Source: Bombiscardovia apis (GTDB taxonomy: Bacteria > Actinomycetota > Actinomycetes > Actinomycetales > Bifidobacteriaceae). From it: 64,000 nucleotides of DNA. Numbering within the stretch: position 1 is the stretch's first letter; every line of letters starts with the position of its first letter. A program made the translations under genes and the position numbers. The notes under the pieces were generated by a model. It worked only from the letters and a program-made list of their open reading frames with translations. It was not told the DNA's origin and did not search any database. Location: contig NZ_AP026800.1 in the NCBI RefSeq assembly GCF_033095945.1, forward strand, positions 1,612,001 through 1,676,000. The letters run 5' to 3'. Below are positions 4,281-25,749 of the stretch, one piece after another.

Positions 4281-4336
4281 ATTTTTTCCTTTCCTCGATT
4301 ACACTCCCATTGTACGTTTTTTGGGCGTTTTCAGCT

Positions 4337-6685
4337 CTAGCGTCCGCCGAAGGAGCCGCCGCCCGAACCGCCGGAAGAACCGCCGAAGCCGCCGCCACTA
4401 AATGAGCCACCACTGGAGCCTGAACCGCCGGAAGCGTCGCTAATGGTGGATTGCAACTGGGAGAAGCTGGAAGAGAGCTGACCGCCTAAATCGCTGAAAT
4501 CGGGCACAAAGGCTTGGTTGAAAGACTCCGAGCCCATGCTTCCCGAAGAGGAGTTCCAGCCGCCATTGACACCGTAGGAGCGGTAGGACATGTAAATGAG
4601 CTGATGGTCGGGGTGGGCATCCAGCCAGGCTTCATCGGTGACCTGCGGATAGGCCTTGGCCAACTGCTGCATGGCTTCCTTGCTGATGCCGAGTGCGGCG
4701 GCGTAGACCAAGTAAGTGCCCCACATCACCAAATCGTTGACACCACGATCTGCGAACGACGAGAAATCGGTGATATAGCTTCTAAAGCCCACTACTTGCC
4801 CGGCCCAGTCTTGCCCCTGCTCGGTTAAGACCTCGGAAGCGCCGTAACACAGGGCAAAAATTGCGCTTATCATTAGCACCGAGCCAGTGCAAGCTCCTAA
4901 GAAAGTCTGACCGGTAACCTTGCCTAGGAGCCAAACGAACACGGCCCCAATGACAGCAAGCACCTCAAGGATGACACTGTTTTCGCGCGAGCGCGTGGCC
5001 GCCAACAAACCAAACTCAGCCGCTACAGCGTTTTCAAAGTTCTCCAGCAAAGTAGAGGCCTTCTCATAATCCTTGAAGCTGTCGCGCATCTGGTTCATGT
5101 CGAAGACTGCGGTTTGCAAGCGTTCGCCAGCTTTGAGCAGCAAATCTAGGACTGCGCGCTCGCTGCCAGTTAGGCCCAAAGAATCAGGATTCTGACTAGC
5201 TACCGGGTAGATAACGACAGTTGATGTTTTGTCGGCTTTATCTTGCTTTCCGCTAGCACTACGCATGGCTTCGCCCAAGGAATGAGCGTCTGTTTGCAAG
5301 AGATTGAGTCCGGCATAGCGCTGGGCAGGGCCTGGATAAATGGCAATCGCACCCTTGTTGGCCAGCGAAAGTACCGAAGAAGCCATCTGCCGAGAGCGCA
5401 GCTGCCTCTTACCTCCATACACGACCGTGCCTAGGGCTGCGGCCGATGCCGGCGACATCTGCGGGGCATCGCGACGGTAAATAACCTCACCGTGATATTG
5501 GGATTGGCGGCGGGTAGAGAAAGCTGTTGCAAGGCAGTAGATAACTGCTGCCAACACTACGATGCCCAAGATAGCCCATACGATTAAGACCGTGCGAGCT
5601 TTGGTTTGCTGCATCTGTCGCCAGCTTCGCTCCTCTTTATCCTCGCGGTCTGCAATGTTCTTACCCTGCTCGCCTCTCATGGTGCGCTCTACGCCCTGGG
5701 TCAACGAATGATCCATCGTGACGGCAGTGTCGATATACTGGCCCGGCGCTACACGCTTAGCCTCGAAGCGCAGACTGCCATCAGCGCCGCGCGAGGAAGT
5801 CGATTCGCCCGTAAAGTGGAGCCATGCTTTGCAATTGCTGGCATTAGCACCCTTGGGCAGGTGAATCGTACCAGTCACGCTCTCGATTTGGGTCTCGTTA
5901 TTAGTACCCACCGGCTCCCACTGGAAGCTGGTGACATCGTCGTAAGCGGTAGAGACGCCATGCATGGTCATCTCTATCTCGAAGACCAAGCTGTCAGCCT
6001 TGTCTATTTGCGGGATATTCCAACCGATTTCTACGGTGCAGCTTTCCCTGCCCGCCTCGCAAGAGGCAAACTCTGAAGAGCTCGGAGTCCCGGACGCTAG
6101 AGGGGTGTATTGGTAATCAGGATGGCCATCTTCGCTATACCTATCCGCAACGGACATATACCAGCGGTTGGCTTGGGAATCATCCCAATCGGGCACGTCT
6201 GCAACACTGCTGGGGCTTATGGCCTCGGTGCGACTGTAAGTTCTATCGTCGCTGACGTTGCGCACGGAAACGTCTGAAATGCCAGTGAGGTTGAGGGGCT
6301 TAATCTCATACTGCTGGTAGAGCTGCCTCCAAGGCTTATCGCCGTCGTCATCTTCGCGAGAGAGCAGCCGCATATCTACCCGCTGTTTGACTCGCAAGTC
6401 TCCGTTGGGCAAGACGGTCGTGTCATATTTGAGTGAGTTATACGACAGCTCGGGCGTGCGAGCAGCGGTCGTTACGACAGCAAAGAGAAAACCTAATACG
6501 GCAGTTATGATAATGGCGATTGCTAGAGAGCTAAAGAAACGCTTGGCAGACCAGAAGCCGCCCTTGCGCCCACCCAACTGAGCGTTAGTAGGCAGCGGGC
6601 TTGCACCAGTAGTGTAGGGATTGCTCTGCTGGAGAGGCGGATTGGGCTGAGCTGTATAAATTCCCTGCTCGTTTGGATTGCTCAC
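4337..6685 (-). CDS. DUF2207 membrane protein with Gly/Ser-rich tail
   Basis: This 782-residue membrane protein has a Gly/Pro/Asn-rich cytoplasmic start and a membrane helix at about residues 54-75. A large extracytoplasmic domain follows (about 80-355), typical of DUF2207, with a second helix at about 362-388 and a further hydrophobic pair at about 570-620. It ends in a tail of Gly, Ser and Phe. This layout (DUF2207, helices, glycine-rich end) is the usual form of YciQ-like proteins. It lies 42 bases after lemA, and LemA/DUF2207 pairs recur in many bacteria, so the two probably act together at the envelope. No enzymatic motif is seen and the function of the family is not established. Confidence 0.85.
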   Translation of the reverse strand: MSNPNEQGIYTAQPNPPLQQSNPYTTGASPLPTNAQLGGRKGGFWSAKRFFSSLAIAIIITAVLGFLFAVVTTAARTPELSYNSLKYDTTVLPNGDLRVKQRVDMRLLSREDDDGDKPWRQLYQQYEIKPLNLTGISDVSVRNVSDDRTYSRTEAISPSSVADVPDWDDSQANRWYMSVADRYSEDGHPDYQYTPLASGTPSSSEFASCEAGRESCTVEIGWNIPQIDKADSLVFEIEMTMHGVSTAYDDVTSFQWEPVGTNNETQIESVTGTIHLPKGANASNCKAWLHFTGESTSSRGADGSLRFEAKRVAPGQYIDTAVTMDHSLTQGVERTMRGEQGKNIADREDKEERSWRQMQQTKARTVLIVWAILGIVVLAAVIYCLATAFSTRRQSQYHGEVIYRRDAPQMSPASAAALGTVVYGGKRQLRSRQMASSVLSLANKGAIAIYPGPAQRYAGLNLLQTDAHSLGEAMRSASGKQDKADKTSTVVIYPVASQNPDSLGLTGSERAVLDLLLKAGERLQTAVFDMNQMRDSFKDYEKASTLLENFENAVAAEFGLLAATRSRENSVILEVLAVIGAVFVWLLGKVTGQTFLGACTGSVLMISAIFALCYGASEVLTEQGQDWAGQVVGFRSYITDFSSFADRGVNDLVMWGTYLVYAAALGISKEAMQQLAKAYPQVTDEAWLDAHPDHQLIYMSYRSYGVNGGWNSSSGSMGSESFNQAFVPDFSDLGGQLSSSFSQLQSTISDASGGSGSSGGSFSGGGFGGSSGGSGGGSFGGR

Positions 6686-6727
6686 TACTGCCTCCCGCTG
6701 CTACGCTATCTTCTCAATTGCTGATAA

Positions 6728-7345
6728 TCACTGCCCCGAAGAGCTTGCCCCATTACTAAAATCAACCTTGGGAGCCTGCTTAGCTTCGGGCTCGGCCTCG
6801 AAGTATTGAGACTGCTCAAAGTGGAAGAGGCCTGCAATAATATTGCTCGGCACAGTCTGGATGCGCGTATTGTACTTCTGCGTCACATCGTTGTAGAACT
6901 GGCGGGCGTAAGCAATCTTCTGTTCCAAATCGGAGAGCTGATTTTGTAGGCTCATAAAGTTCTGGTTGGCCTTCAAATCAGGGTATGCCTCGACGGTTGC
7001 CATCAAGTTGAAGAGGGCGCTGCTCAGCTTGTTTTCTGCTTGAGCGCGCTGGGCTACCGCCTGCGAACTTGAAGGTGTCGAGGCTGCGGCCGCTTGCACA
7101 GCACCAGAGCGGGCCTGGGTAACTGCCGTAAGCGTGCCAGATTCATGACCGGCATAGCCTTTGACAGTTTCTACAAGATTGGGCACTAAATCGGAGCGCT
7201 GCTTCAAGAGCACGTCGATTTGAGACCAGCCGTTTTTAACGCGATTACGCAAATCAATCAGACCGTTGTAGACGCTGATACCCCACAGCACCAAGAGAAC
7301 GGCGATGACCACAATCGCAATGAGGATAATAAGTAGTGTACGCAT
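6728..7345 (-). CDS. lemA: LemA family protein
   Basis: The 205-residue protein has one N-terminal membrane helix (residues about 4-24) followed by a helical domain. The LemA signature is present: NGLIDLRNRVKNGWSQID, then LLKQRSDLVPNLVETVKGY, and an FNMxx-like late motif (ARQFYNDVTQKYNTRIQTVP). LemA proteins are small envelope proteins of uncertain role, anchored by the N-terminus. It is transcribed ahead of the DUF2207 gene in a likely two-gene operon, separated from upstream pnp by a strong terminator. Confidence 0.9.
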   Translation of the reverse strand: MRTLLIILIAIVVIAVLLVLWGISVYNGLIDLRNRVKNGWSQIDVLLKQRSDLVPNLVETVKGYAGHESGTLTAVTQARSGAVQAAAASTPSSSQAVAQRAQAENKLSSALFNLMATVEAYPDLKANQNFMSLQNQLSDLEQKIAYARQFYNDVTQKYNTRIQTVPSNIIAGLFHFEQSQYFEAEPEAKQAPKVDFSNGASSSGQ

Positions 7346-7397
7346 GAATCTATTATCCCATACCTGTGTTTCGGGTAGGAATCAGCCTGAGAATAGC

Positions 7398-7430
7398 AAA
7401 AAGCGGCCCCAACCTTTCGGTCGGAGCCAC
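7398..7430 (-). terminator. Rho-independent terminator after pnp
   Basis: Read on the minus strand, a 12-bp stem (7419-7430 with 7403-7414, three G-T wobbles) closes a GAAA tetraloop and is followed by TTTTT. It lies 37 bases after the pnp stop codon and before lemA, so it separates the two transcripts. Confidence 0.9.
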
Positions 7431-7466
7431 TTGTTTACCTATTGAGACTCATGGCCTCAGCCGGTT

Positions 7467-10211
7467 TTAGTTTTCGGTCTCGAAAGGATCGAAATCGCGG
7501 CGGACACGGCGACGGGGGCGTTCGGTACGCTCTTCGCGACCTGCCTCGTACTCGTCGTAGTGCTTATCTTCTGCGTAGCGAGGATTCTCGCGACGACCGC
7601 GGTAGCCACCGCGGCTGGAACCACCGGAATGCTCATAGCGACGCTCGCCACCACGGCGGTCAGAGTGCTCGTAACGGCTGGAACGCTCGCCACCACGGTG
7701 CTCAGAACGCTCAGAACGGTCGCGGCTACCACGATCATCACGATCATAGTCGCGGTCCTCACGGCGGTGACGTGGGCGGGAGAACTCTTCGCGCTCCTCA
7801 AATGTGTCTTCAACTACCGGCTCGTCTTCAAAACGAACAGGACGCTCGGAATGACGGGAACGGCTGCGGTCACGATCATTGTCGCGGTCGCGGCGGTCGT
7901 AACGGCCACCCCTATCGCGATCATGGTCACGACGGCCCGAACGCTCGGAACGGTCGGAACGCTCAGAACGCTCAGAGCGTTCACGGCCACCGCGGGCGTT
8001 GGACTCCTGATCTTCAAAACCAGGAATCGCCAGCGAAATCTTGCCGCGGTCGTCCACACCCTGGACGATGACCTGGACTGCGTCACCTTCCTGGAGCACG
8101 TCTTCGACAGCGTCGATGCGCTCACCGTTGGCCAAGTTGCGAATCTGAGAAATGTGCAACAAACCGTCGGTACCGGGAGTCAAGTTAACGAAAGCGCCGA
8201 AGCTCGTAGTCTTAACAACCTTGCCGTCGTACGTTTCGCCAGCCTCGGGCAGGTGAGGATTGACAAGCTGGTCGATAGTCTCCTTGGCCTTCTGAGCAGC
8301 TTCGCCACCCTCGGAGGAGATGTAGACCGTGCCGTCATCTTCAATAGAGACCTCAGCACCAGTGTCTTCCTGAATCTGGTTAATCATCTTGCCCTTGGGG
8401 CCAATGACTGCACCAATCTTGTCGACAGGCACCGTGGTGGTGATGATACGAGGAGCGTATGGGCTCATCTCGGCAGGTCCGTCGATGCACTCATCAATGA
8501 CTTCGAGAATCGTGGTGCGAGCTTCCTTAGCCTGCTGCAGAGCGCCAGCCAAGATGTCGGCAGGAATGCCATCCAGCTTGGTGTCGAGCTGCAAGGAAGT
8601 GATGAACTCAGAGGTACCAGCTACCTTGAAGTCCATATCGCCAAAGGCATCCTCAGCACCCAAGATGTCGGTCAGAGTCTTGTAAGTGGGGCGACCGTCT
8701 ACTTCACCAGTTACCAAGCCCATAGCTATACCAGCAACGGGAGCCTTAATTGGCACGCCGGAAGCCAACAGAGAGAGCGTGGAAGCGCAGACCGAACCCA
8801 TAGACGTAGAGCCGTTGGAACCCAAAGCTTCGGAAACCTGGCGGATGGCGTAAGGGAAGTCCTCACGGCTAGGCAGCACTGGAATCAGAGCGCGCTCTGC
8901 CAGGTTGCCGTGGCCGATTTCGCGGCGCTTGGGCGAACCCATGCGGCCGGTCTCACCGGTGGAGAAGGGAGGCATCTCGTAGTTGTGCATGTAGCGACGA
9001 GTGGTCGGGCCAGAAAGGGCATCAACCGTCTGCTCCATCTTGAGCATGTTCAGGGTGGTAACGCCCAAAATCTGGGTCTCACCGCGCTGGAAGAGAGCGG
9101 AACCGTGAACGCGAGGAATTACATCTACCTCAGCAGACAGGGTACGGATATCGCGCAGGCCACGGCCGTCGATGCGGTAATCCTGAGTCAGGATGCGGCG
9201 ACGAACGATTTGGCGCTGGAGCTCCTTGAAGGCATTGCCCAGCTGCTTCTCCTTCTCAGCCTCGTCCATATCCAAGAACTCGGTAGACAGCTGCTCACGC
9301 ACCTGCTCCTTGATCTCGTGAATCTGCTCCTGTCGGGGCAGCTTCTCAGCGATGGAGAGCGCCTCGTCTAAAGCGGCGTGAGCGAACTGATCGATACGGG
9401 CATAAAGCTCGTCGGTATACTCAGGGAAGAGCTGGAACTCCTTGGTGGGCTTGGCAGCCACAGCCTTGAGCTCATTCTGGGCCTGGCACAGCACCTTGAT
9501 GAAGGGCTTAGCAGCTTCCAAACCTTCGGCTACAACCGCTTCGTCGGGCTTAATCTGGCCCTCGTCGTAAATCAAGGTCCAAGCGTTCTTGCCAGCGCCT
9601 GCCTCAATCATGGCGATAGCAACGTCGCCGCCCTCAATCTCACGGCCGGCTACAACCAGCTCGAAGACAGCGCGCTCGCGCTCACTCCAACGCGGGAAAG
9701 CAACCCACTGGCCGTCAATCAGAGCCAAACGCAGACCAGAAACCGGGCCCTCGAAAGGCAGGCCAGAAATCATGGTCGAAGCGGAGGCAGCGTTGAGTGC
9801 CAGCACATCGTAGGTGTCGTCGGGGTCGAGAGCCAAGACAGTCTCTACAACCTGGACCTCGTTGCGGAAGGTGTGGGGGAAGAGAGGGCGCAGAGGACGG
9901 TCGATCAAGCGGCAAGCCAAGATGGCTTCGGTCGAAGGACGGCCTTCACGACGGAAGAAGGAGCCAGGAATCTTACCCGCAGCATACATCTTCTCTTCAA
10001 CGTCGACGGTCAGCGGGAAGAAGTCATAATTCTCCTTGGGGCTGGAACCGGCGGTAGTGGTCGACAAGACCATTGAATCTTCATCTAAGTAAGCGGCTAC
10101 TGCCCCATCCGCCTGCTGGGCGAGACGACCTGTCTCGAAGCGCACCGTGCGCTTGCCAAATGAACCATTGTCAATGGTGGCTTCTACAGCCTTAATTTCG
10201 GGACCCTCCAT
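7467..10211 (-). CDS. pnp: Polyribonucleotide nucleotidyltransferase (PNPase / GpsI) with long Arg/Ser/Glu tail
   Basis: This 914-residue protein is a phosphate-dependent 3'-5' exoribonuclease that degrades mRNA. In actinobacteria the enzyme is also called guanosine pentaphosphate synthetase. Two RNase PH cores (about 15-240 and 345-580) are followed by a KH domain around 600-650 ([18 protein letters not shown]) and an S1 domain around 665-735 ([15 protein letters not shown]). A tail of about 175 residues made of short RSE/RSD/RDR-type repeats comes last. RNase E-like tails of this kind serve protein or RNA contacts, but here that is inferred. AAAGGAGGAA precedes the ATG. It lies 280 bases downstream of rpsO on the same strand, the conserved rpsO-pnp order, with a terminator between them. 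Confidence 0.97.
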
Positions 10212-10453
10212 AGGGTTCCTCCTTTGTTACTTCTATTATTTTCCTACTACTTCATTCATCTTTGTGCATGCCGGACGCGATATACCTGATCGCGCGCTCT
10301 TGCTAGTAATCTGCTAGTAATCCTCATACTGAGCAGTGCCGCTTAACTTGCGTACGCTGCCTCATGCTTACTGCACTGGGCACACGCATTGCCGCTATTG
10401 GACGACACTCGTAATCTACTCACTGTTCAATTATGTTCAATCTGTCAGCATGC
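10212..10453 (-). other. pnp 5' region between rpsO terminator and pnp
   Basis: No gene is seen here. This stretch must hold the pnp promoter and leader. A tandem 11-base duplication lies inside it at 10301-10322. In several bacteria pnp leaders fold into a structure that PNPase and RNase III use for autoregulation. No such fold could be confirmed by eye. Confidence 0.4.
10301..10322. repeat. Tandem 11-bp duplication in the pnp leader region
   Basis: TGCTAGTAATC occurs twice back to back (10301-10311 and 10312-10322). It may be a recent slippage event or a double binding site upstream of pnp. Confidence 0.6.
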
Positions 10454-10482
10454 AAAAGCGCCCGAGCGCACAGGCTCGGGCG
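10454..10482 (-). terminator. Rho-independent terminator after rpsO
   Basis: On the minus strand a perfect 9-bp stem CGCCCGAGC/GCTCGGGCG (10474-10482 with 10459-10467) closes a 6-base loop and is followed by CTTTTG. It lies 9 bases after the rpsO stop codon. Confidence 0.9.
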
Positions 10483-10491
10483 GAAGTCTAA

Positions 10492-10761
10492 CTAGTGGCG
10501 CAGTCCAAGACGCTCAACCAAAGAGCGGTAGCGCGCGATGTCTACCTTCTTCAAGTAGTCAAGCAGACGACGACGCTGACCAACCATAAGCAGCAGACCA
10601 CGACGAGAGTGGTGATCGTGCTTGTGCATCTTCAAATGCTCGGTCAAGTCGGAGATGCGCTTGCTCAGCAGTGCAACCTGGACCTCGGGGGAACCCGTGT
10701 CGCCTTCGTGCGTTGCATACTCGGCAACAATCTTGTTCTTTTCTTCCGTTGTCAGTGCCAC
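10492..10761 (-). CDS. rpsO: 30S ribosomal protein S15
   Basis: The 89 residues match S15 exactly in size, with the conserved core [20 protein letters not shown] and [21 protein letters not shown]15 binds the central domain of 16S rRNA during small-subunit assembly. The start codon is GTG, preceded by AAGGAG at a good spacing. An rpsO-pnp order is conserved widely in bacteria. Confidence 0.98.
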
Positions 10762-10867
10762 GGTTTCTCCTTATATATCCGTTGCGCGGTGCACCAGCCT
10801 AATGCTGAAGCGCTCTCAATCCGCGGGCGAACTCACGCCAAGCTTTAATCATACACCGCTCCCCCGC

Positions 10868-10895
10868 CATATATAATCCACATGCCATGCAACAA
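10868..10895 (-). promoter_or_regulatory. Likely rpsO promoter
   Basis: On the minus strand TTGTTG (10890-10895) and TATATG (10868-10873) stand 16 bases apart, about 105 bases before the rpsO GTG. This leaves a leader of about 100 bases, room for the S15 autoregulatory structure known in other bacteria. The assignment is by eye. Confidence 0.45.
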
Positions 10896-11036
10896 GCATA
10901 TACATTCAAAATATGGCCGTAAGGTTTGTCTTCATATTAATTCCTTGTCTATGCTGTTTTTCTACCAGTGCAAATGATTTTGGGCTATAAAGTATGTCCA
11001 CATCCAACAACAATTCGCTTCTACGACTTTTTATAC

Positions 11037-13049
11037 TTACCAGAACAATGGCTCATACTGTCCACGAATCCAAGTAGAAGGTATCAATTTACTATCGTTA
11101 CCTCTCCATTCTTCGATAAGTTTCATATTATCAAACTCTCCCCATATGTCAGACCCAGCATGTTCCAAAACAATAACTTGTATCTTGCCGTAAGTTCTCT
11201 CGACAAAGTCAGAAAGTGTTGCAAATACTTTTTTCACGGCTTCGCGGTCTTCACTAATTGACTCCCTATCGGATTCGAGCAACGATGTCTTTGCATCGTC
11301 CAACCCCTTTGGAAAGTAAACTTGGCTGGGTTGATCTAGAACAAGGAAGCTAGGCACTTGGCCAGGATGGTCGATTTGGAAGTATTCCTGCAGCGCAAGC
11401 AGCATTGCTATATGATAGGACAACCAGTTGGCAGCACTACCAATTTCTGAAAGATAGTTTTTACGACCTCGCGAATCTGAAACGCTTATTGTTAAGTCAG
11501 GAATCGAGAAAGTTACGGGGCCTTCATGCTTTTCGACGTCAAGAGTTTGCAATGCGTCCTCAGCATATTGTTGAATCATTTGCAACTTGTATTTGAGTTC
11601 GCGCTGAATTGCATCTTCGTCGATTATACGGTTAACTTCTTTTATTCTGTCTTCTATACTTTTAAGTCGAACAGAATCTGCTGATTCCCCACTAACCTCA
11701 TTATAAATAGCGAGATAGTTTTCAACAGCACCTAAAAATCTGCTGATTTGGTTCGTAGTATATTCTTGAGGATTGCTGGATTCTTCAAGACGAATTTGCT
11801 TTTGTAACTGATCTAATTCCGAGCTTAAAGTCTCGATTTCTCCTTTTATCTGCAATTGTTCTTTGTCGACTGCTGGGGCGACAAAGGAGAATTGCTTTGA
11901 CTCAGTTTCAACATCTTCCATGACTTCACACAGGTGTTTTAACGTCTTAGCCGCATCATCTTTAAGAGAATGATGACAAATTGGGCAAGTCGCATCACTC
12001 TTGTTGGTCTGCTCTAAAAGCCAAGAGGAACTATGAAGACGGTTCTTCTCCTCGTCTAACGCTTTACTGTATAGATCTGTTGTATCTAGTAGCTTGTTGA
12101 CTTCTTGTAATCTTCTTTTGAGTAAAAATAAGCGAGCGGATATATCCTTCTCTTTTTCATATAACGTTGAAAGCCGCCCCGCAGACTGGGGAATCTCTTT
12201 CTGATAGTTAGAAACATTCGCTGAATCTTGTAAAATTGTCTTAAGAGAATTTACCTTATCTGACATGCTCATTTTATCGGTTCTTTGACGTATCAGTCCG
12301 AGCTCAATTGCACGATAAATAATAGAGTCAAGCTGTAAGTTCCATAAATGACGGGCCTGTTCATAACTATCTAGTTTTGCGACTAACGTTTTTTTATCCC
12401 GTTCAAGTTGCTTCTTTTCTATTCGCAGTCGTAGTGTTTCTGATGTTTCAGCGCCTAACACGTACGGGAAAATATCAATTAGCCGCTTGCGATGTTCGTA
12501 TGTATCAGTTTTATAAAACAAAACATCCGAATTTGCTATGATATTTTGCGGTTGAAATAAAAATGCTGAAAAGTCTCTATATGACGGTCTAGCATTCCCA
12601 AGAGGTGCGTCGTCAGAAAGTTTCAAAGCAAGATCGCTCACTGATAACAATTCATTCAAACGTTCCTTAACTTCAGGAAGGGAACAGTTCCGCCTAGGAT
12701 GGTAGTCGGGAATATGCACTTTTTCTGAATACTCATAAAACATATCTGAACTAGCCTGATATTCACCAGGTTCACGTCTGCACAGCAATAATTCTCTATG
12801 TCCATTGCTGTCGTCTACGAGCAAAAGACCGAACCAGCTACAATTTTCCCGAACTGCAGTAACAGGAATTGCGCACTTTTGAGCACCCATACAGTAATCT
12901 ATGATTGGAATTATTGATGACTTACCAGTCTTTGAGGCACCTGTTATTATATTGATTACGCCCGATTTGAATTTAATGACCCTTTTACCGACATTTTCTT
13001 CTTTCGGCCAGAGTATTATCTCGCGTATAACAAAACCCATAATATTCAC
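11037..13049 (-). CDS. ABC-3C system ATPase, DUF3732 type (SMC/RecN-like)
   Basis: The 670-residue protein has an N-terminal P-loop in IITGASKTGKSSIIPIIDYC (about residues 35-54). A long coiled coil with a zinc-hook-like CPICHHSL near residue 355 follows. The C-terminal ATPase lobe has FLVLDQPSQVYFPKG (Walker B-like, D-Q in place of D-E) near 565. This is the form of DUF3732 proteins, the ATPase part of ABC-three-component systems, a class of predicted conflict and anti-phage systems. Its start overlaps the stop of the middle-component gene by 4 bases (13046-13049), so translation is coupled. In such systems the ATPase is thought to sense invasion and release the effector. The family is confident and the action here is inferred. 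Confidence 0.85.
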   Translation of the reverse strand: MNIMGFVIREIILWPKEENVGKRVIKFKSGVINIITGASKTGKSSIIPIIDYCMGAQKCAIPVTAVRENCSWFGLLLVDDSNGHRELLLCRREPGEYQASSDMFYEYSEKVHIPDYHPRRNCSLPEVKERLNELLSVSDLALKLSDDAPLGNARPSYRDFSAFLFQPQNIIANSDVLFYKTDTYEHRKRLIDIFPYVLGAETSETLRLRIEKKQLERDKKTLVAKLDSYEQARHLWNLQLDSIIYRAIELGLIRQRTDKMSMSDKVNSLKTILQDSANVSNYQKEIPQSAGRLSTLYEKEKDISARLFLLKRRLQEVNKLLDTTDLYSKALDEEKNRLHSSSWLLEQTNKSDATCPICHHSLKDDAAKTLKHLCEVMEDVETESKQFSFVAPAVDKEQLQIKGEIETLSSELDQLQKQIRLEESSNPQEYTTNQISRFLGAVENYLAIYNEVSGESADSVRLKSIEDRIKEVNRIIDEDAIQRELKYKLQMIQQYAEDALQTLDVEKHEGPVTFSIPDLTISVSDSRGRKNYLSEIGSAANWLSYHIAMLLALQEYFQIDHPGQVPSFLVLDQPSQVYFPKGLDDAKTSLLESDRESISEDREAVKKVFATLSDFVERTYGKIQVIVLEHAGSDIWGEFDNMKLIEEWRGNDSKLIPSTWIRGQYEPLFW

Positions 13050-13534
13050 AACCTAACTTTTAATAGTTGCTGTATCTCTAGAAGAGAAGAATCAGAAAAC
13101 ATGAGACCGATTTTAGACGCTATTTTAATCGTTGTATCCACTTCTTTATCCAGCCGCTTATAAAGTTGCATGTTGGGATTAATGGCACCTTCGGACAAGG
13201 ATAAGACAAATATCTCAGACGCGAATCCTAGGCGGAGTGCTTCTAATGTTAATTCTCTGTACTCCTTGCTTTGATTAGATAAGTTTAACAAATTATCCCG
13301 CTGGACATTTTTAGTTATTTTTCCAATTATTTTACTTAGACCAGACTTTTTTTGCGTGCGCTGGAACAGGTCAATCCATTCGTCATTCAAGAGTATTGGT
13401 ATCGCAAGAAATATCAAACTAAGCGGGCAACTTCTATATTTTCCAGAATTTGTGTAACCTAACGTGAACCCGTACAGCAAAATGGCAGCATGCGCAGGAT
13501 TCTGAATTATTTCCGCTTCTTCAAGGTTAATCAT
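13046..13534 (-). CDS. ABC-3C system middle component
   Basis: A 162-residue, mostly alpha-helical protein with no enzyme motif. It lies between the predicted effector (19-base gap) and the DUF3732 ATPase (4-base overlap). Size, the early N-P-A-H-A-A-I-L-L pattern (NPAHAAILLYGFTLGY) and the P-L-S-L-I-F-L-A-I-P-I-L-L stretch fit the small middle components of ABC-3C systems, which are thought to link ATPase and effector. The call rests mainly on gene order and size. Confidence 0.75.
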   Translation of the reverse strand: MINLEEAEIIQNPAHAAILLYGFTLGYTNSGKYRSCPLSLIFLAIPILLNDEWIDLFQRTQKKSGLSKIIGKITKNVQRDNLLNLSNQSKEYRELTLEALRLGFASEIFVLSLSEGAINPNMQLYKRLDKEVDTTIKIASKIGLMFSDSSLLEIQQLLKVRL

Positions 13535-13553
13535 TCTCTACCATACTTCCAGC

Positions 13554-14735
13554 TTATAAGCGATTCATATAGTCGGGGTGCCAGCCGATTTGTTGTACGT
13601 TTGACAACTTGTGCAGCGATCCAGTAGCTAGAAAATCAGGAACTTCTACTGCTTCCAATGTTTTCAAACAAGCGTCTTTTGAACATTGAGCATACAGGTC
13701 CTGACCTTGTTCCTGAGGTGTTAAATTATTACTATTGGCGTTAGCTTTAGCTTTTAGACGGTTTTGTCGCCAAATGCGTTCCAAACTCTCAGAGTATTCT
13801 TGCTGGGCCTTTATCGTTATTTTACCTGCCCTTGACCACTCAACAAGATTTACTTTCGCCTGGAGGAAATCGTTAACTGCTTCTAATTTTTCTGCCTCAT
13901 CCACTTCAATTAAGTCAAGCTGCCTAAGATAAATATCTTGCTTAGCGTATTCAGCAGCTTGTTCACTCTGAGATGGACCGTCGACGAAAGCAGCCAAGAA
14001 ACTAGGTTTTAAATATCTCTGTTGAGTAGAAGTTAGTTGTTGGCGGAAAAGGTTAACTGTAATCTTGGCTGGCTCCTTATTATTCATCAAAGGAGTTAGA
14101 TAACCATCAATCCACCCCGACATATCTTTAATCAGAGCGCCCCTATAATCAGGTCCAATTAATGACCAACAATACTGATTCTTTATTTCTGCTTCTAATG
14201 AATCATTACCAATATTAATGAATTTAAAATGTTTTAAAACCTGTTTTAGCTCTTCAATGTAGTTCTCAATAATTAAAGAAACAAACTGGATGCTTTTACT
14301 ATTTGAAGGACTATCTATTAGCCGTTGAATAACTTTAATTGCGTCGTCTAAATATTCTCCGTCAGGAGTAACCCTATCGAAGGCCGAAACAACTTCACTC
14401 TCATCAATTTTATGAGGAGAAATTACAACATATGAGAAAACGATTTGTTTATCGTCAGGCAAATTCCCACTTCTACAAATATCAACCCAATTGTGTATCG
14501 TTTTCCAAAAATCTAAAGACCGATTTGTAACTGCCTTATTCCCCTGAGCAAGCTGATTTTTGATTTGAACCAATTCCAAGGTCTTTTCAAATTCAACACT
14601 AACGTCATCATAAACTTCAAGCCCAACTTTCACTTCCGACTCATCTCTTACAGCTTTTATGAGACGGTAATGCATGTAATCGTATTGACGCTTAAAGGCT
14701 AACACCGTTTGGGGTACAGTAGTCTTTCTTGGCAT
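13554..14735 (-). CDS. ABC-3C system effector with nuclease-like N-terminus
   Basis: The 393-residue protein is first in the three-gene ABC-3C set. Near the N-terminus, VGLEVYDDVSVEF is followed by LELVQIKNQL. The E-x-x-D-D and Q-x-K spacing is the pattern of the DUF4297/Cap4-like branch of PD-(D/E)xK endonucleases, which cut double-stranded DNA when activated. The remaining 330 residues are helical and would be the ABC-3C-specific C-terminal region that docks the partners. GGAAG precedes the ATG. A/T-rich composition marks it as acquired. Nuclease function is inferred from the motif. Confidence 0.7.
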   Translation of the reverse strand: MPRKTTVPQTVLAFKRQYDYMHYRLIKAVRDESEVKVGLEVYDDVSVEFEKTLELVQIKNQLAQGNKAVTNRSLDFWKTIHNWVDICRSGNLPDDKQIVFSYVVISPHKIDESEVVSAFDRVTPDGEYLDDAIKVIQRLIDSPSNSKSIQFVSLIIENYIEELKQVLKHFKFINIGNDSLEAEIKNQYCWSLIGPDYRGALIKDMSGWIDGYLTPLMNNKEPAKITVNLFRQQLTSTQQRYLKPSFLAAFVDGPSQSEQAAEYAKQDIYLRQLDLIEVDEAEKLEAVNDFLQAKVNLVEWSRAGKITIKAQQEYSESLERIWRQNRLKAKANANSNNLTPQEQGQDLYAQCSKDACLKTLEAVEVPDFLATGSLHKLSNVQQIGWHPDYMNRL

Positions 14736-14870
14736 ACGTCTTCCATCTTCTTAGAGTGAATCAGAAATCAGCCTACCACATATCAAACAAATACTCTCCT
14801 CCATCATACAGCTATGGAATAGGTTAAATCTGTTTAAAAGCTGTTCACTGGCTATGCATATTCGCTTTAA

Positions 14871-15785
14871 TCAATGATAGTCAACAGGATACACGAGTAC
14901 TTGGTACTGCAATTCGTTTATAACATCTTGACTCAATTCGGATACATTATACTTCCATAATTTCCCAATGCGCGGATTCCAGATACCTATCTGAGTTATC
15001 TTTTTATACTCACGAAATACAGAGTGGAGCCCCATTTGCCAGTACATAAGAATCTGTAAAGTATGCTTATTTGTCGGGGGAAACTTGCTGCATTTAAAAT
15101 CCCACAAACCATCAGCCGTAACTAAATCGCAATCTCCGGCCGAAACAACTTTGGTATATCCGCCTTCAAAAGTCTCTAGCCCAGCTATAGCAGGTCCGTA
15201 TTCTTGCATAAAGGTATGACTGCGCAAAACCATACGTCTTATATGCTGAATAGTTGTTTGATTCGCCGTTTCAAGCTTCTCTGGATTTCTAAAGGTCTCA
15301 ATACCAGCGCGGAAGATACAATCATATGCAACGAGGTTTAATGCTGCGCTAATCGATTCATCGTCTAAACCGTTAATCTGGTCTAAAAACATTGGAACTT
15401 GTGTTATCGCTACAGAAGCGTTATCAATAACTTCATATTCTCCCAGACCATATTTTTTAATTAACTCCTTAACCTGCATAGCTGAATAGAGTGGAATCTG
15501 AAATGCATCATTTTTAGATGCCCCTTCAACATACCTAGAAAGATAGTCAACCACAGTCCCAATAGCAGAAGGGCTTCTGTTTTCTAGGGACGAATCTAAG
15601 GAACCATGACCGTCATCAAAACTCTGAGTCTCCATGTCCTTAACAGGAAGGTAGCCTCCGCGAGGTTGTTGTACACACGGAACCCCTTTGACACCTCTTA
15701 CTCGTTGAGTAACAGAGATTCCGCCAAGTTCAATAGCTGCCTTAGCACCAGAATCAAGTGGTAAGAACGTGTCTCGTTTCTTCAT
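14871..15785 (-). CDS. Predicted PD-(D/E)xK nuclease with RecB-type QxxxY motif
   Basis: About 304 residues from the ATG at 15785. The frame is open to 15902, but AGAGAAAAG and a TATAAC box (15816-15821) sit just before 15785, so the shorter form is preferred. GDCDLVTADGLWDFKCSK gives the two acidic residues and the D-x-K. LQILMYWQMG follows at the spacing of the QxxxY motif of RecB/AddB/Cas4-type nucleases. No Cys cluster is seen, unlike Cas4. The N-terminal half is unrecognised. It precedes the ABC-3C effector by 135 bases, on the same strand and in the same A/T-rich block, so it may belong to the same defence island or be a stand-alone defence gene. Confidence 0.65.
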   Translation of the reverse strand: MKKRDTFLPLDSGAKAAIELGGISVTQRVRGVKGVPCVQQPRGGYLPVKDMETQSFDDGHGSLDSSLENRSPSAIGTVVDYLSRYVEGASKNDAFQIPLYSAMQVKELIKKYGLGEYEVIDNASVAITQVPMFLDQINGLDDESISAALNLVAYDCIFRAGIETFRNPEKLETANQTTIQHIRRMVLRSHTFMQEYGPAIAGLETFEGGYTKVVSAGDCDLVTADGLWDFKCSKFPPTNKHTLQILMYWQMGLHSVFREYKKITQIGIWNPRIGKLWKYNVSELSQDVINELQYQVLVYPVDYH

Positions 15786-16086
15786 TGTAAACTTTTCTCT
15801 TAAATTCATCATAATGTTATAGTAACGGTTGTCTCCCGGATTACCACATCTCTTAAAAGAAGTAGAATGAAAGTTATCTGTATTGTTTCTAAAACTAAGC
15901 AATGCAGATAAGGACTCTCAACCGTTATGAGACACCATTGGGTTTTATTGTTCAACTCAATACCTCATTTTATAAACTCCTCATTTACCCGATTTATGTC
16001 TTGTGTATTCCAAGTCGCCCTACAAATCGGAAGGAGCGAATGGTAGAGCGACCAATTATCAATCCAAATACATATATATGGCTGAC

Positions 16087-17406
16087 TTACTCATGAAGCG
16101 GCCGCAAGCGATACGCGGCAATCGCTGAAATCAGCGCAAGCACATAGCAGATTACGTTTGCAATTAACGAGGGCATGTAGGAGCCGGCCATGTCGAAGAT
16201 TGTGCCGTTGATAGTGTTGGCCAAAGCAACCGAAAGCACGCCGGACATGGTGAGAATACTGAGAATCTCAGCGTAATCGCGCTGACCGAAGGACTGACGG
16301 GCCACCCAAGGCAGCGCCACGAGCAGCACGCCCTGACCCAAACCAGCCAAGAAGCCGGCAATAGCTGCGGGAGTGGGCGTCACGAAGAACATCATGAGTG
16401 CCCAACCGGCCAAGCCTACTGCTGAGTAGAGCACCAATACCAGCTCGGTTTTTACGCGATCAAGGAAAATGCCAATGCTTGCCTTGCCGATTGCAGCACC
16501 CAGCATGATGCCCGAGACCACGAAAGCACCCTCCTGCAAGGTCAAACCGCGAGACTGCTCATAGCCCGAGACATGCTGAACCATGCCCGTCGCCCACTGC
16601 AAAAGCACGTAGCAAGCAATCAGCAGTAGGAAGGTGGGAGTGCGGTAGGCTTTCTTCGCTTCGATGCCGGTGATGGAGTTGGCGTCTTGAGACTTAGAAT
16701 CGTTCGAAGCGCTCACATCGCCGGTTTGTTCACTCGCAAACGCACTACCGTACATGTGCTCGCCCTTAGCGGCTCTTGGCATGAAACGCAGCACAAAAAT
16801 GGAGAAGGGAAGAATGCAGACCGCCAGCAACAGCGCCGTAAGTCGGTAAGCCGGACGCCAACCCAGATCCGTAATCCATGTGGAGACGACGGGGTTGAAG
16901 ACCATGCCGCCCAAGCCGCTCAGGCCCAGCGCAATGCCCATAACCAAGCCCAGCTGCTTCTCAAACCAGTTTGAGAGGAGCACGGAAGGAGCCAGTGTAA
17001 TAGGAATAACGTAGGCGATACCGATGAGAGCAAAGGAAATATAGAACTGCCAGAGCTGAGTAAAGAAGGACTGGCCGAAGAAAATCAGAGCGCAAGCCAG
17101 AATGCAAATGCTCAGCAAGAGGCGGGAATCTACGCGTTTCATGAGCTTACCAGCGAAGAGCATGGTCGCAGCGCCGGCGAGATTCATAATGGTCGAAGTG
17201 AGCGCAATCTGCGTGCGCGAGACTTCTAATTCTTTAGACAAAACGGCATAATAGAGGCCTGGAGTGTTGACTATGAGGCCATAGCCAACGAACGAGAGAA
17301 GGCAGCAGCCCGCAAAAATGAGCCAAGGGCGCAGCGATGAGCCGGTGGAGTGGGTTGCGGTGATTGACGAGGACGAGTTGGAACCGGAGTTTGGTGAAGC
17401 AGAAAT
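16087..17406 (-). CDS. MFS transporter, oxalate/formate antiporter-like (OFA) family
   Basis: About 439 residues with 12 predicted membrane segments in two halves split by a hydrophilic loop near residue 215. The body resembles OFA-type major facilitators (GLSGLGGMVFNPVVSTWITD, TLAPSVLLSNWFE), which exchange small monocarboxylates or related anions. The substrate is not known here. The open frame can be extended to a TTG at 17433, but no ribosome site precedes that codon. TTAGGAGGT lies inside that extension, 6 bases before an ATT at 17404-17406, and no ATG or GTG follows for about 60 codons. I therefore take ATT as the likely start, or suspect a base error. Confidence 0.8.
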   Translation of the reverse strand: MSASPNSGSNSSSSITATHSTGSSLRPWLIFAGCCLLSFVGYGLIVNTPGLYYAVLSKELEVSRTQIALTSTIMNLAGAATMLFAGKLMKRVDSRLLLSICILACALIFFGQSFFTQLWQFYISFALIGIAYVIPITLAPSVLLSNWFEKQLGLVMGIALGLSGLGGMVFNPVVSTWITDLGWRPAYRLTALLLAVCILPFSIFVLRFMPRAAKGEHMYGSAFASEQTGDVSASNDSKSQDANSITGIEAKKAYRTPTFLLLIACYVLLQWATGMVQHVSGYEQSRGLTLQEGAFVVSGIMLGAAIGKASIGIFLDRVKTELVLVLYSAVGLAGWALMMFFVTPTPAAIAGFLAGLGQGVLLVALPWVARQSFGQRDYAEILSILTMSGVLSVALANTINGTIFDMAGSYMPSLIANVICYVLALISAIAAYRLRPLHE

Positions 17407-17526
17407 CTTGGGACCTCCTAAGCAGTCTTCCAAATTAAGCCAGCTTAGACTCTACGTCTCCGCGCCGCCCCGTGACTGAGTATCCCCATTACCGTTACGA
17501 CTGATACACGTATAAGGAGGTTCGGT

Positions 17527-17733
17527 GTGGGGTTCGGGGGGGGGGGAGCGAGGTTTAGGCAAGGAAGCAAACTATCATTATTCACCGAAAACAACTATCC
17601 TAAAATCAAGAAGCACAAAACTACACAAGTGAATGTTCCCCACACCTGCGTGGAATGCAACCATCTTCGTCTCTGCCTGACCAGTGGACCTACCCTATCC
17701 TTTACCCGTGCGGTGAGGGGGGGGGCTATGTAA
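17527..17733 (+). CDS. Candidate small protein bracketed by G11 and G9 tracts
   Basis: A 68-codon frame starts at GTG 17527 with a perfect AAGGAGG at 17514-17520, 6 bases upstream. The G11 run (17536-17546) falls at codons 4-7 and the G9 run (17717-17725) three codons before the stop. The middle contains CVECNHLRLC, a Cys pattern that could bind metal. No homologue is recognised. Slippage in the first tract would change the frame of almost the whole protein, which would suit phase variation. It lies divergent to the MFS gene. The case rests on the ribosome site alone, so treat it as a candidate. Confidence 0.3.
   Translation: MGFGGGGARFRQGSKLSLFTENNYPKIKKHKTTQVNVPHTCVECNHLRLCLTSGPTLSFTRAVRGGAM
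17536..17546. repeat. Homopolymer G11 tract
   Basis: Eleven consecutive G on the plus strand, 10 bases after a GTG codon with a strong ribosome site. Runs this long are rare and prone to slipped-strand change. Confidence 0.85.
17717..17725. repeat. Homopolymer G9 tract
   Basis: Nine consecutive G on the plus strand, 181 bases after the start of the G11 tract and just before the stop codon of the small candidate frame. Confidence 0.85.
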
Positions 17734-17742
17734 CTTAGCTCC

Positions 17743-18084
17743 TCATACTGTTGTCGGCTGCTCGCGACAATAGCTTAGTTCTGGAAACCGAGATTGCCAT
17801 AATTCACGTACACGAACATCCAAATGGAGTTCTGTCCAATCTTCTATTAGCCTTTGAGCATTCAAACCAGCAAGCTGATCTGTGACACGCCCCTCAGCCA
17901 GCAACGCCTGATAAGCCATGTGCCGCTGGCCGACAGATTTTAAGTCAATAATTCGATCACCAGGTACCCACCAGACTGTGTGCTGCAGCTGAATCTGACC
18001 GACATATGGTCCCTGGAGGTCATCGAGTGAATCTGGGGCTTCATAAGGCTTAATATCTCTAAATCTAATATGCTGCTCGCTCAT
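17743..18084 (-). CDS. Small hypothetical protein
   Basis: 113 residues from an ATG with AGGAG 7 bases upstream. No catalytic motif or membrane segment is visible. The pattern HTVWWVPGDRIIDL, AYQALLAEGR and a late LDVRVRELWQSRFPEL resembles a family of small actinobacterial proteins often seen beside putative toxin genes, but no partner gene is present here. The composition is lower in GC than the core genes. Function unknown. Confidence 0.5.
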   Translation of the reverse strand: MSEQHIRFRDIKPYEAPDSLDDLQGPYVGQIQLQHTVWWVPGDRIIDLKSVGQRHMAYQALLAEGRVTDQLAGLNAQRLIEDWTELHLDVRVRELWQSRFPELSYCREQPTTV

Positions 18085-18822
18085 AATGCACTCCTAACGC
18101 TATCTATTATTCCCAAATATATGTTGCGGACGTGAAAAGCAAAGTTATACCTAGTTTTGGATATATACGACATTGAGAGATGTCTAATTGCACGTAAGCA
18201 TTGCACGGTGAATTGTTTAAGGCTTTTGTGATGTTCCAGCATCCAAAGATATTGTTCTTCATTGACGCATCCCCTAATTGAGAACAACGAAGAGGTCGGA
18301 GTGAGAATGAAGATGCCTGCTGGTACTGAAGCCCGGAAGGCGAGGCCGGGCTGCATGTTTCTCGCAGGCTAGGACTTCTGTCATTTGTTGTTGTTCCATG
18401 ATGTTCTTGAATGGATATACTGGAGGCTAGGGTTCCGGCTATCTGGTTTAGTCAGAACCTTTTTGCATTATCACTTCTGTTAGGATTAGAAGATAGTCAT
18501 GACTGCGGCTATGGATAATATTGCTGAAGCAATGAAGCTAGTTACCGCTCTGTGTTATACAGGTGAACACCCCCCCGAATGGGGAACATACTTAAGAAAT
18601 AACCTAATTTAAGAGTTTACTTTTGAATCTTTATTTTAGACTTATTTTCATTTAAGCTGGTAGCGTGTTCCCCGGTTTGAGCATGCTAGATACTCCTCTG
18701 TTGCTTATAACAAAACCAAGTCAGACACAGGATTGATAAGCCATTCAACCATATTGACTTACTGTAAACACTATCCCAATACCAGCATATCAAGCTTGAA
18801 AGCTGCATCTATACAGAAATGG
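18085..18822. other. Gene-poor stretch before tRNA-Gly
   Basis: No convincing gene is seen. The only sizeable frame (minus, 18081-18356) lacks a ribosome site and has unlikely composition. A 7-bp hairpin AGCCCGG/CCGGGCT lies at 18330-18352. A C7 run sits at 18570-18576, with a small CCCC/GGGG hairpin. The upstream promoter of the 17743-18084 gene should lie at the left end. Confidence 0.4.
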
Positions 18823-18893
18823 AGCGGATGACGGGAATCGAACCCGCGTAATTAGTTTGGAAGACTAAGGCTCTACCATTGAGCTACATCCGC
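18823..18893 (-). tRNA. tRNA-Gly (anticodon TCC)
   Basis: On the minus strand a full cloverleaf can be drawn: acceptor GCGGATG/CATCCGC, D arm GCTC/GAGC, anticodon loop CTTCCAA with anticodon TCC, T arm CGGG-TTCGATT-CCCG. The discriminator base is T and CCA is not encoded. It sits 65 bases before the CRISPR array. Confidence 0.95.
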
Positions 18894-18958
18894 GAAGCAG
18901 TTTGCTCGTTACAGAGTCTAGCACACGGGTATCCCCACATTCCCGGACACCTGTGTTC

Positions 18959-19847
18959 AATTCAATCCACACCTCCGCGAGGGAGGTGACGGTAATTGGT
19001 TTATCTGCCTCTGGTACGAAGATAATTTCAATCCACACCTCCGCGAGGGAGGTGACATTAGGAGCTGGACTATATCAGGCCGAAAAAATGATTTCAATCC
19101 ACACCTCCGCGAGGGAGGTGACGAGTTCCCATAAATCGGTGACGATTTTTGTCATTATTTCAATCCACACCTCCGCGAGGGAGGTGACCGGTGATGCGTT
19201 GCCACAGGGGGGCCTTGCGCCAATTTCAATCCACACCTCCGCGAGGGAGGTGACAAGGTATCTCTAGTGTGGCCGGCTGGCTCAAGGAATTTCAATCCAC
19301 ACCTCCGCGAGGGAGGTGACCGACACCGACATCGTGAGTAACCTCGATGATTGATTTCAATCCACACCTCCGCGAGGGAGGTGACAGGCCCCCAAAATGG
19401 CATACGTCAAAGACACCAAATTTCAATCCACACCTCCGCGAGGGAGGTGACGCAGGTAATGGCGGGCAAGCTGGCGAAGCCGCTATTTCAATCCACACCT
19501 CCGCGAGGGAGGTGACGCTGTCTGGCGTGTACCATCGGAGATGCTGAAACATTTCAGTCCACACCTCCGCGAGGGAGGTGACTTGGAGACGGCAGACTTG
19601 AAGCCTGTCATCACCGGATTTCAATCCACACCTCCGCGAGGGAGGTGACAACCTTATGGACCGCTATCCCACAATCCCCGTAATTTCAATCCACACCTCC
19701 GCGAGGGAGGTGACAACCTGATGCAAGTGTAAGACTTGCAGTTAACGGAATTTCAATCCACACCTCCGCGAGGGAGGTGACGCGTAGCAACTGTGCGTGA
19801 GATAGCGAAAAACGTATTTCAATCCACACCTCCGCGAGGGAGGTGAC
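18959..19847 (-). CRISPR. Type I-C CRISPR array, 14 repeats and 13 spacers
   Basis: Fourteen copies of a 32-base repeat start at 18959, 19025, 19091, 19157, 19223, 19289, 19354, 19420, 19485, 19551, 19618, 19683, 19750 and 19816. Spacers are 33-35 bases and all differ. Read on the minus strand the repeat starts GTCACCTCCC and ends GTGGATTGAAAT, the type I-C form, with the inner palindrome CACCTCC/GGAGGTG. The array is therefore transcribed on the minus strand from the cas2 side. The repeat at 18959, the oldest end, has one change in its last bases (AATTCAAT for ATTTCAAT). The repeat at 19551 has one change (CAGTCC for CAATCC). All others are identical, which suggests a maintained array. Confidence 0.98.
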
Positions 19848-20232
19848 CGCAAAAATGGTATCTGACTACCACTTTTGTAAATACTTAGTATAATGCACTG
19901 TTGAGATTATGCTTCTGAAGCAGAGAATGGCTCAGTTTCGGGCTTTTCTACATATAATCTCAGTGCTCAATAAACACTATTTAATTTTCAAACTTTCATG
20001 TGCTTTAGTTTACAAGATTGTGATGCCGCGTTGCCATGGGCTAAATCAGGACATTTCATTCAAAAAACTGGTGCGAAAGTATCGCGTGTTTCGTGACAGC
20101 TTAACGCTCGCACTTATGACATCACACAATTATATGAGATACGTATTGGCGTATTCTTCAGTGAACCTGATTACTAATCTAATACTCAACAATGAAAGCG
20201 CCTAGATCCCATAACAAGCCAGAACACTTAAA
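19848..20232 (-). promoter_or_regulatory. CRISPR leader
   Basis: A 385-base A/T-rich stretch between cas2 and the newest repeat. On the minus strand a TATACT box lies at 19887-19892, about 40 bases before the first repeat, fitting the pre-crRNA promoter. An interrupted inverted repeat sits at 19895-19910 and 19954-19967 (ATAATCTCA-ACA-GTGC against ATAATCTCA-GTGC). The leader is where Cas1-Cas2 adds new spacers. A 98-codon plus-strand frame inside (19909-20205) is not supported as a gene. Confidence 0.7.
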
Positions 20233-20526
20233 TCAGATAATCATAACACTGTCGGCCGGTAAATGTCGTTCCACCCCGTATTGTTCTATCTTTCCCGAAT
20301 ATTTTGCTCCCATATTGTAAAATCGCAAGCTATCTTTTGAATCATCGATAATATCTAGTAGCTGCTGACGAAGTATTAACAAATCGGAAGTGGAAATTAG
20401 GCATTCGAAAATACTATTTTGAACTCGTTGCCCAAACTTCATACAAGCTTTAGCAACCAATCTGAGCCGCCTCCGACCGGCAGGCTCCTCAGTATTCACA
20501 TCGTAGGCTACGACAACCATCATCAT
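20233..20526 (-). CDS. cas2: CRISPR-associated endonuclease Cas2
   Basis: The 97 residues have the ferredoxin-like start VVVAYDVNTEEPAGRRRL with the conserved Asp, and RVQNSIFECLIS in the middle. With Cas1 it forms the integrase that inserts spacers at the leader. Three ATG codons stand in a row at the start, so the exact first residue is open. It lies 37 bases after cas1 and next to the leader. Confidence 0.95.
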   Translation of the reverse strand: MMMVVVAYDVNTEEPAGRRRLRLVAKACMKFGQRVQNSIFECLISTSDLLILRQQLLDIIDDSKDSLRFYNMGAKYSGKIEQYGVERHLPADSVMII

Positions 20527-20563
20527 GAGCGTTTACCCCTAGCTATAAATTCCTATGTCAGGT

Positions 20564-21595
20564 CTACTTCCAGAAGAACGGCGGGTAGGCATCAATATCG
20601 CCACGGATATATCTGGCTAACAAAAGCGCTTGCACATACGGCACCATGCCCCAAGGTATTTTTTCACGCAAAAACGGGTGAGTAATTTGCTCATTTCTGC
20701 GTTTTTGCCAAGCTGCTAATACCACTTTCCTTCCGGCATCGTTAAGATAGACACCACCGTTTTCTCGCACTTCAAACTGATTAGGAGATATGGCTTTCGT
20801 ATTGACCAAACTTATTGCGAATCTATCAGCAAGCGCAGGCCGCAGCTCCTCCACTAAATCCAATGATAAGGACGCACGGCCCGGCCTGTCTGCGTGCAGA
20901 AAACCAACATACGGATCAAGCCCCACGCCTTGCAAAGCTGCTTTGCAATCGCCAGAAAGTAATACATATACAAACGAGAGCAGCGCATTCATCCTATCCT
21001 GCGGTGGCCTTCTGGTACGACGCTCGAAGTAAAAATCGTCTTTATTGTTGAGTATCAAATCGTCAAACGCGTAAAAATACGTTTTGGCGGCTTGCCCTTC
21101 AATCCCCCGAACGCTCTCAGCATTATCACAATTCTTTATTTCCTTCAGCGCGCTCGCCAGTATGGAACTTTGCCTTTTCAACCGTTCAACATTTACTTGC
21201 AAAGCATGGTCTCTTGTAGCTCTTTCGAGAACCCATCTTGAGTTGTAGATTTTCCCAATTACGAAAGAAGCAGCTATCGAGCTACATGCAGATGCATCGT
21301 CAGCTAGTACAAACTGCTTCCGCCTGAGTAGCACATTTCTGTTGCTCTCACCGAGAATAGAGCACAGGTATCTGCCGCGTGGCGAATAGAACGATACCGA
21401 AACTCCAAATTCGCAGCACTTACCGAGTAAAGCTGGTGAAGCACCCTTGTACGAGAAGCACAATATAGATTCAATTGACCGCAACGGCACTTTCGCTACC
21501 GCCTTATCTCCGTCGCTGACGACCACATTTTCATTCTCAAGCGATAGATACGCGCTTTCCGTCGTAACAAAAAGCGTGTTAAGCATTTGTCTCAT
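20564..21595 (-). CDS. cas1: CRISPR-associated integrase Cas1 (type I-C)
   Basis: 343 residues from the ATG at 21595, which overlaps the cas4 stop by 4 bases and has AGGAGG just upstream. The frame is open further but that extension lies inside cas4. The metal-binding set is visible: Glu in IEGQAAKTYF, His in VGFLHADRPGR and Asp/Glu in SLDLVEEL. Cas1 is the catalytic part of the spacer integrase. Size and C-terminal RNEQITHPFLREKIPWG fit subtype I-C. Confidence 0.96.
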   Translation of the reverse strand: MRQMLNTLFVTTESAYLSLENENVVVSDGDKAVAKVPLRSIESILCFSYKGASPALLGKCCEFGVSVSFYSPRGRYLCSILGESNRNVLLRRKQFVLADDASACSSIAASFVIGKIYNSRWVLERATRDHALQVNVERLKRQSSILASALKEIKNCDNAESVRGIEGQAAKTYFYAFDDLILNNKDDFYFERRTRRPPQDRMNALLSFVYVLLSGDCKAALQGVGLDPYVGFLHADRPGRASLSLDLVEELRPALADRFAISLVNTKAISPNQFEVRENGGVYLNDAGRKVVLAAWQKRRNEQITHPFLREKIPWGMVPYVQALLLARYIRGDIDAYPPFFWK

Positions 21596-22329: not shown

Positions 22330-22344
22330 CTGTTCCCAATCAAA

Positions 22345-23257: not shown

Positions 23258-23265
<8 letters not shown>
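22345..23265 (-). CDS. cas7: Type I-C Cascade backbone Cas7 (Csd2)
   Basis: 306 residues from ATG 23265, which overlaps the cas8c end by 8 bases. The longer open frame is only cas8c sequence in another phase. The signature NRYDFSVLYDVENGNPNGDP and late ARGKMAVRKLYVFKH are typical of Csd2. Several copies coat the crRNA in the surveillance complex. Confidence 0.96.

Positions 23266-25749
<2,484 letters not shown>

Follow-up and report, generated by a model that had tools for sequence, protein, structure and literature searches.

The closest described relatives of the locus reported here are the Lamassu systems. One source places ABC-3C and DdmABC within the Lamassu superfamily, for which phage and plasmid work is reported (PMC10586767), and a 2026 review gives hairpins or ends of DNA as what Lamassu senses and DNA cleavage as its action (PMC12904381). 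Some reported Lamassu systems pair an upstream MBL-fold nuclease with a LmuA that is fused to a trypsin-like protease (PMC12799240). The second family of interest is PDC-S61, a phage defence candidate of PADLOC, whose name, among the papers searched, occurs in one (PMC11514479), where a table lists it for Streptococcus thermophilus ST55. Members of both families adjoin each other in a stretch of 64,000 nucleotides of the Bombiscardovia apis genome (NZ_AP026800.1, positions 1,612,001 to 1,676,000; hereafter the window, whose own numbering is used), where four genes with intact motifs occupy a site at which three relatives have no insert. We propose, with a probability of roughly 85%, that this island holds two independent anti-phage units, a Lamassu operon and a PDC-S61 nuclease gene, gained by horizontal transfer. 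Two independent units in one small island are the simplest account, and the nuclease and Lamassu look like neighbours co-located as in other defence islands, with no new four-part machine.

The island and its insertion site

Four minus-strand open reading frames fill positions 11037-15785, within an A/T-rich inserted segment at 10871..16086 (no strand assigned), whose approximate borders follow from the empty site in relatives and from composition. The right flank is a core gene (10492..10761, minus strand), identified from the open-reading-frame list and the gene order in three relatives and followed by another listed frame (7467-10211); we take these to be rpsO and pnp, the names being assigned from their proteins. 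The left flank is an MFS transporter gene (16087..17433, minus strand; Pfam MFS_1, 5e-35). The window's PNPase is 79-83% identical to six from Bifidobacterium, Gardnerella, Galliscardovia, Pseudoscardovia and further Bifidobacteriaceae, and 64% identical to that of Actinomyces bovis, in line with a host from the Bifidobacteriaceae.

In three same-genus relatives among the 20 examined (L136, L137 and L138), the MFS gene lies directly upstream of rpsO, at a spacing of 142, 274 and 169 bp respectively, against 5325 bp in the window. On one side, DNA similarity to L136 sets in again near 10871; on the other it ends near 16097, a short way inside the 3' end of the MFS gene. The empty site, together with these breakpoints, therefore indicates that approximately 5.2 kb was inserted between rpsO and the MFS gene. 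The comparison covered 20 of 26 relatives; the others had no MFS-rpsO match there, and L140 was uninformative, the wrong strand having been picked. Neither the nuclease family nor LmuB was found in the 26 other genomes of the genus. No terminal repeats were recognised; the repeat search gave only short, imperfect families, none of them recognisable as island ends, and neither Pfam nor PADLOC revealed an integrase or other mobility gene among the four island genes.

The composition of the segment is consistent with this insertion. Its overall G+C (10871-16086) is 39%, against 56% over positions 1-10870, and in 1-kb steps the values are 0.36-0.41 over 11001-16000 and 0.53-0.59 over 1-10000. At third codon positions, the four island genes have a G+C of 0.33-0.39, and pnp, rpsO, the MFS gene and the gene at 31853 have 0.64-0.66. 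Past the MFS side the G+C is 0.536 (16087-18000), then 0.475 (18001-31000, with a CRISPR-Cas locus inside) and 0.559 beyond, so the contrast is weaker there than on the rpsO side. The first-pass annotation of this DNA had described an A/T-rich defence island of four minus-strand genes, a description with which the reading frames, the G+C and the third-position G+C agree, and its borders (10868..16086) match those of the empty-site comparison. It had also set the island in GC-rich core on both sides, which holds on the rpsO side and applies less sharply on the MFS side.

The Lamassu operon and the adjoining nuclease

The second to fourth genes are, as judged from their sequences, a complete Lamassu (ABC-3C) operon with intact motifs. 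The gene lmuA (13554..14735, minus strand) encodes a putative nuclease-type effector of 393 aa with a C-terminal CTD7 domain (Pfam CTD7, 1.6e-19; PADLOC LmuA, 6.8e-39; PDB 9nxx_A, 1.6e-35). It is followed by lmuC (13046..13534, minus strand), which encodes the middle component MC3 of 162 aa (Pfam MC3, 3e-25; PADLOC LmuC, 7.2e-6), and by lmuB (11037..13049, minus strand), which encodes an SMC/Rad50-like DUF3732 ATPase of 670 aa (Pfam DUF3732, 6.8e-50; PADLOC LmuB, 3.9e-124; PDB 9hqu_A, 2.3e-131). The set that the first-pass annotation had called ABC-3C (DUF3732 ATPase, middle component and nuclease-type effector) is thus recovered by both Pfam and PADLOC and, for LmuA and LmuB, by PDB matches. 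Its remark that experimental work on such systems is scarce has been overtaken by the matching PDB entries and by the phage and plasmid work mentioned in PMC10586767.

LmuB carries a Walker A motif (GASKTGKS, 37-44), a zinc-hook-like CPIC (355-358) and DQPSQ (572-576), with T41-S44, D572-P574 and Q576 invariant in a ten-sequence alignment; the nearest relatives found share 37-39% identity with it, and its PDB relatives are 9hqu, 9uxl and 9ny5. The PDB relatives of LmuA are 9nxx, 9ny1, 9hqu and 9hqx, and its catalytic-type residues D43/D44, Q57 and K59 pair, in the alignment, with those of the solved chains 9nxx and 9hqu. Two solved LmuA sequences differ from their sister sequence at the position of the K59-equivalent lysine, as expected of nuclease-dead mutants. 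The order lmuA-lmuC-lmuB matches that of five annotated plasmid loci, and the MC3 family is found in 5 of 396 genomes of the phylum, this genome counted. By analogy with its relatives, LmuABC would be active against phages or plasmids.

The end of lmuC overlaps the start of lmuB by 4 bp and the lmuA-lmuC gap is 19 bp, compared with a gap of 135 bp (14736-14870) between the nuclease gene and lmuA. Tight coupling is therefore confined to lmuA, lmuC and lmuB, in keeping with the coupled set of three proposed at first pass. Sites resembling promoters or terminators did not exceed the frequency seen in shuffled sequences.

The first gene (14871..15785, minus strand) encodes a PDC-S61-family protein of 304 aa from its ATG, and the open frame extends further upstream to a TTG at 15902. 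Residues 23-300 match positions 2-251 of the 253 in the PADLOC PDC-S61 model (9.1e-87), and all 45 aligned family members match this model. A second PADLOC model, RTasPDDEXK, matches weakly and along the catalytic half (2.1e-10), and again 45/45 aligned members match. None of D218, D220, K231, Q244 and Y248 varies across these 45, and D229 is nearly invariant, which suits a PD-(D/E)xK nuclease with QxxxY, as the first-pass annotation had read it. The protein is most likely a RecB/Cas4-like PD-(D/E)xK DNase. Its fold can only be predicted, because no PDB sequence match was found, including in searches with family profiles, and hhalign detected no relation between the family and the window's Cas4; no Pfam match to the 304-aa protein was found either.

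Linkage of the two families and the readings of the island

No conserved linkage between the nuclease and Lamassu exists in the loci examined. With tblastn, several diverse queries and E values up to 1e-3, LmuA, LmuB and LmuC were found at 0 of 102 PDC-S61 loci, and the PDC-S61 nuclease at 0 of 38 LmuB loci. The 102 loci comprise 12 of 29 plasmid records, one phage record, the best 80 of 154 genome-contig relatives, one locus from a further genome (L135) and eight viral contigs; many are cut by contig ends, and the 17 omitted plasmid records include the most distant nuclease relatives (22-29% identity). The LmuB set consists of 10 loci from genomes or plasmids and 28 viral contigs, several beginning at a contig edge. 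All 38 match LmuB, partly by construction, and the queries found LmuA in 23 and LmuC in 8 of them; given this low sensitivity for LmuA and LmuC, it is the lack of LmuB that carries weight in the count, and Lamassu types with a very divergent LmuB could escape the search. The nuclease was not seen in the regions around MC3 of the four other MC3-bearing genomes of the phylum, and among the plasmid LmuB matches listed (25 and 60 rows, of 86 records) no accession was common to the 29 nuclease plasmid records. An initial scan of genome contigs with a single nuclease sequence had found no relative.

Among 50 nuclease-carrying genomes, a subset of the 80 best genome-contig relatives, a DUF3732 gene was found in one, a Ruminococcus metagenome-assembled genome (MAG), on another contig. 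Since the nuclease lies near a contig end there, this genome was considered as a possible split four-gene case; it was ruled out, since other genes precede the lmuABC-like genes on their own contig and the 318 bp that remain after the nuclease hold no start of LmuA, so that the two families are not neighbours within the assembled sequence.

The relatives of the nuclease were found in changing company. Neighbour counts refer to 90 loci, L044, L058 and L060 having been dropped because no nuclease open reading frame was called there. At 15 of these loci the nuclease has a HsdM-cluster gene no more than 6 kb away, and at 14 a serine-recombinase-like gene, so labelled from its sequence. In ten streptococcal loci (L046, L052, L063, L066, L070, L073, L078, L080, L081 and L084), the nuclease directly precedes the hsdM gene of type I restriction (-4 to 46 bp), with hsdS and hsdR matches upstream; in L080, hsdM is split in two pieces. 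The same ten loci have a gene of varying length on the side of the nuclease away from hsdM. Kurthia, Halobacillus and Microbacterium loci have other arrangements of the nuclease with hsd genes, and these differing arrangements suggest that the nuclease joined hsd loci repeatedly. The nuclease domain also stands C-terminally in proteins with a SNF2 helicase domain in Slackia (L038:7670-10768) and in a Clostridiales MAG (L068:1240-4770); it is followed by HTH_17 in L021 (below cut-off in L047 and L057) and by a PcrA/UvrD tudor-type domain in L091. A further PDC-S61 relative, on a Limosilactobacillus reuteri plasmid (L015:6998-8707), has a C-terminal extension of about 310 residues and no Pfam match in the protein. 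Other neighbours match HerA, DolB, ThsB, TRIP13, PifA, PDC-S01, PDC-S22, PDC-S34 and other families, with one or two members per family, and still others match ordinary metabolic families. The PADLOC scan took in 105 of 238 neighbours, chosen by hand, and 25 of the 157 matched families are listed, a single Lmu match outside these being possible. This distribution fits a PDC-S61 gene that takes up places next to different partners, many of them, though not all, defence genes.

Several observations weigh against two independent units. The nuclease and the lmu operon have a common strand, composition and single insertion site, and the search detected nothing terminator-like in the 135-bp gap, so that their co-transcription is possible. 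One genome, the Ruminococcus MAG, has both families. The Pfam Cap4_nuclease match to LmuA stays below its cut-off (16.8 vs 26.2 bits), and the assignment of the PDC-S61 protein as a nuclease draws on motifs and on a weak PADLOC match.

Alternatively, the nuclease could be passive cargo that a different mobile element, such as a recombinase-bearing element or an hsd operon, left behind, and could have no present function. The recombinase-like neighbours described above, the 29 plasmid records that carry relatives, and the fact that none of the island's own four genes is a mobility gene are consistent with such an origin, but the reading frame and the invariant residues of the family are intact, and we consider cargo without function unlikely.

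Rather improbable, too, is a four-gene Lamassu variant, in which the PDC-S61 nuclease would join LmuABC as a gated helper or as its second effector. The upstream position of the nuclease on the same strand, within a single insertion of like composition, would suit it, as would the precedent for an additional nuclease gene placed upstream, known from Lamassu, Hachiman, AVAST and DRT (PMC12799240), and the occurrence of the family elsewhere as helicase fusions or within restriction operons. Against it stand the 135-bp gap and the nature of the precedent, whose MBL-fold nuclease and trypsin-like protease on LmuA are both unmatched here. A second case is absent from the 102 nuclease loci and the 38 LmuB loci, which rules the variant out as a conserved unit; as a one-off event of recent date it is improbable. 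The first-pass annotation had raised such a variant and pointed to gene neighbourhoods as the place to look for it; there, the nuclease and the ABC-3C genes did not co-occur, and the proposal finds no support.

Most doubtful is the idea that PDC-S61 is a transferable module recruited repeatedly by DNA-tracking machines, namely type I restriction motors (before hsdM), SNF2 helicases (as a C-terminal fusion) and, in the window though at none of the other loci examined, the SMC-like Lamassu as a working four-gene system in which tracking by LmuB would feed ends to the nuclease.

For the two independent units that we favour, a mechanism can be sketched for Lamassu from its relatives, with the help of the review (PMC12904381). 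The SMC-like LmuB and LmuC would keep the LmuA nuclease inactive until LmuB encounters DNA of an unusual kind, for instance hairpins or free ends from a replicating phage or plasmid. LmuA would then be released or assembled and would cut DNA, halting the infection, probably at the cell's cost. The one-gene PDC-S61 nuclease may act alone or with whichever partner it lands beside.

The locus adds Lamassu to a Bifidobacteriaceae genome, as a new member beside a new PDC-S61 member, and would be a clear-cut case of a defence cassette of two units placed between core genes. PDC-S61 itself is a candidate nuclease with no Pfam match, located inside hsd operons and fused to SNF2 helicases; it may illustrate the reuse of one nuclease by different DNA motors, and it is directly testable.

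Other window features and comparison with described systems

The window also holds a type I-C CRISPR-Cas system (18961-27901), with an array of 14 repeat copies (18961-19867) beside a tRNA-Gly gene (18820-18893) and with cas1, cas4, cas7, cas8c, cas5 and cas3 on the minus strand (20564-27901). Close to this locus, a protein of 252 residues (31056-31814) matches a CARF-type PADLOC model over residues 172-227 (2.1e-9). Elsewhere, on Sinorhizobium and Agrobacterium plasmids (L160 and L161), the same Lamassu type lies beside an annotated Hachiman HamA, a restriction endonuclease and a DUF6088 gene, with an AbiEii-type gene too in L160; these are further mixed defence islands.

The island resembles the nuclease-protease Lamassu, Hachiman, AVAST and DRT systems of PMC12799240 in having an extra nuclease upstream of a core defence gene. 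The features of the nuclease-protease Lamassu itself were not recovered, since in Pfam and PADLOC, at E values up to 0.1, the nuclease had no match to MBL and LmuA had none to trypsin. RTasPDDEXK is described as DRT, and neither Pfam nor PADLOC identified a reverse transcriptase among the four island genes. The invariant acidic, Lys, Gln and Tyr residues of PDC-S61 are common to the island nuclease, which differs from the family in an insertion in its first half and in an N-terminal extension of about 22 residues, similar to one in a Bifidobacterium longum plasmid copy; it also differs in adjoining Lamassu, as none of the 102 other loci does. The closest likeness is to Lamassu/DdmABC/ABC-3C (PDB 9hqu, 9hqx, 9nxx, 9ny5 and 9uxl): LmuA and LmuB match the solved chains over nearly their full length, the likeness extends to LmuC as MC3, to the gene order and to the motifs, and the island is set apart by the gene for a nuclease of another family upstream of lmuA.

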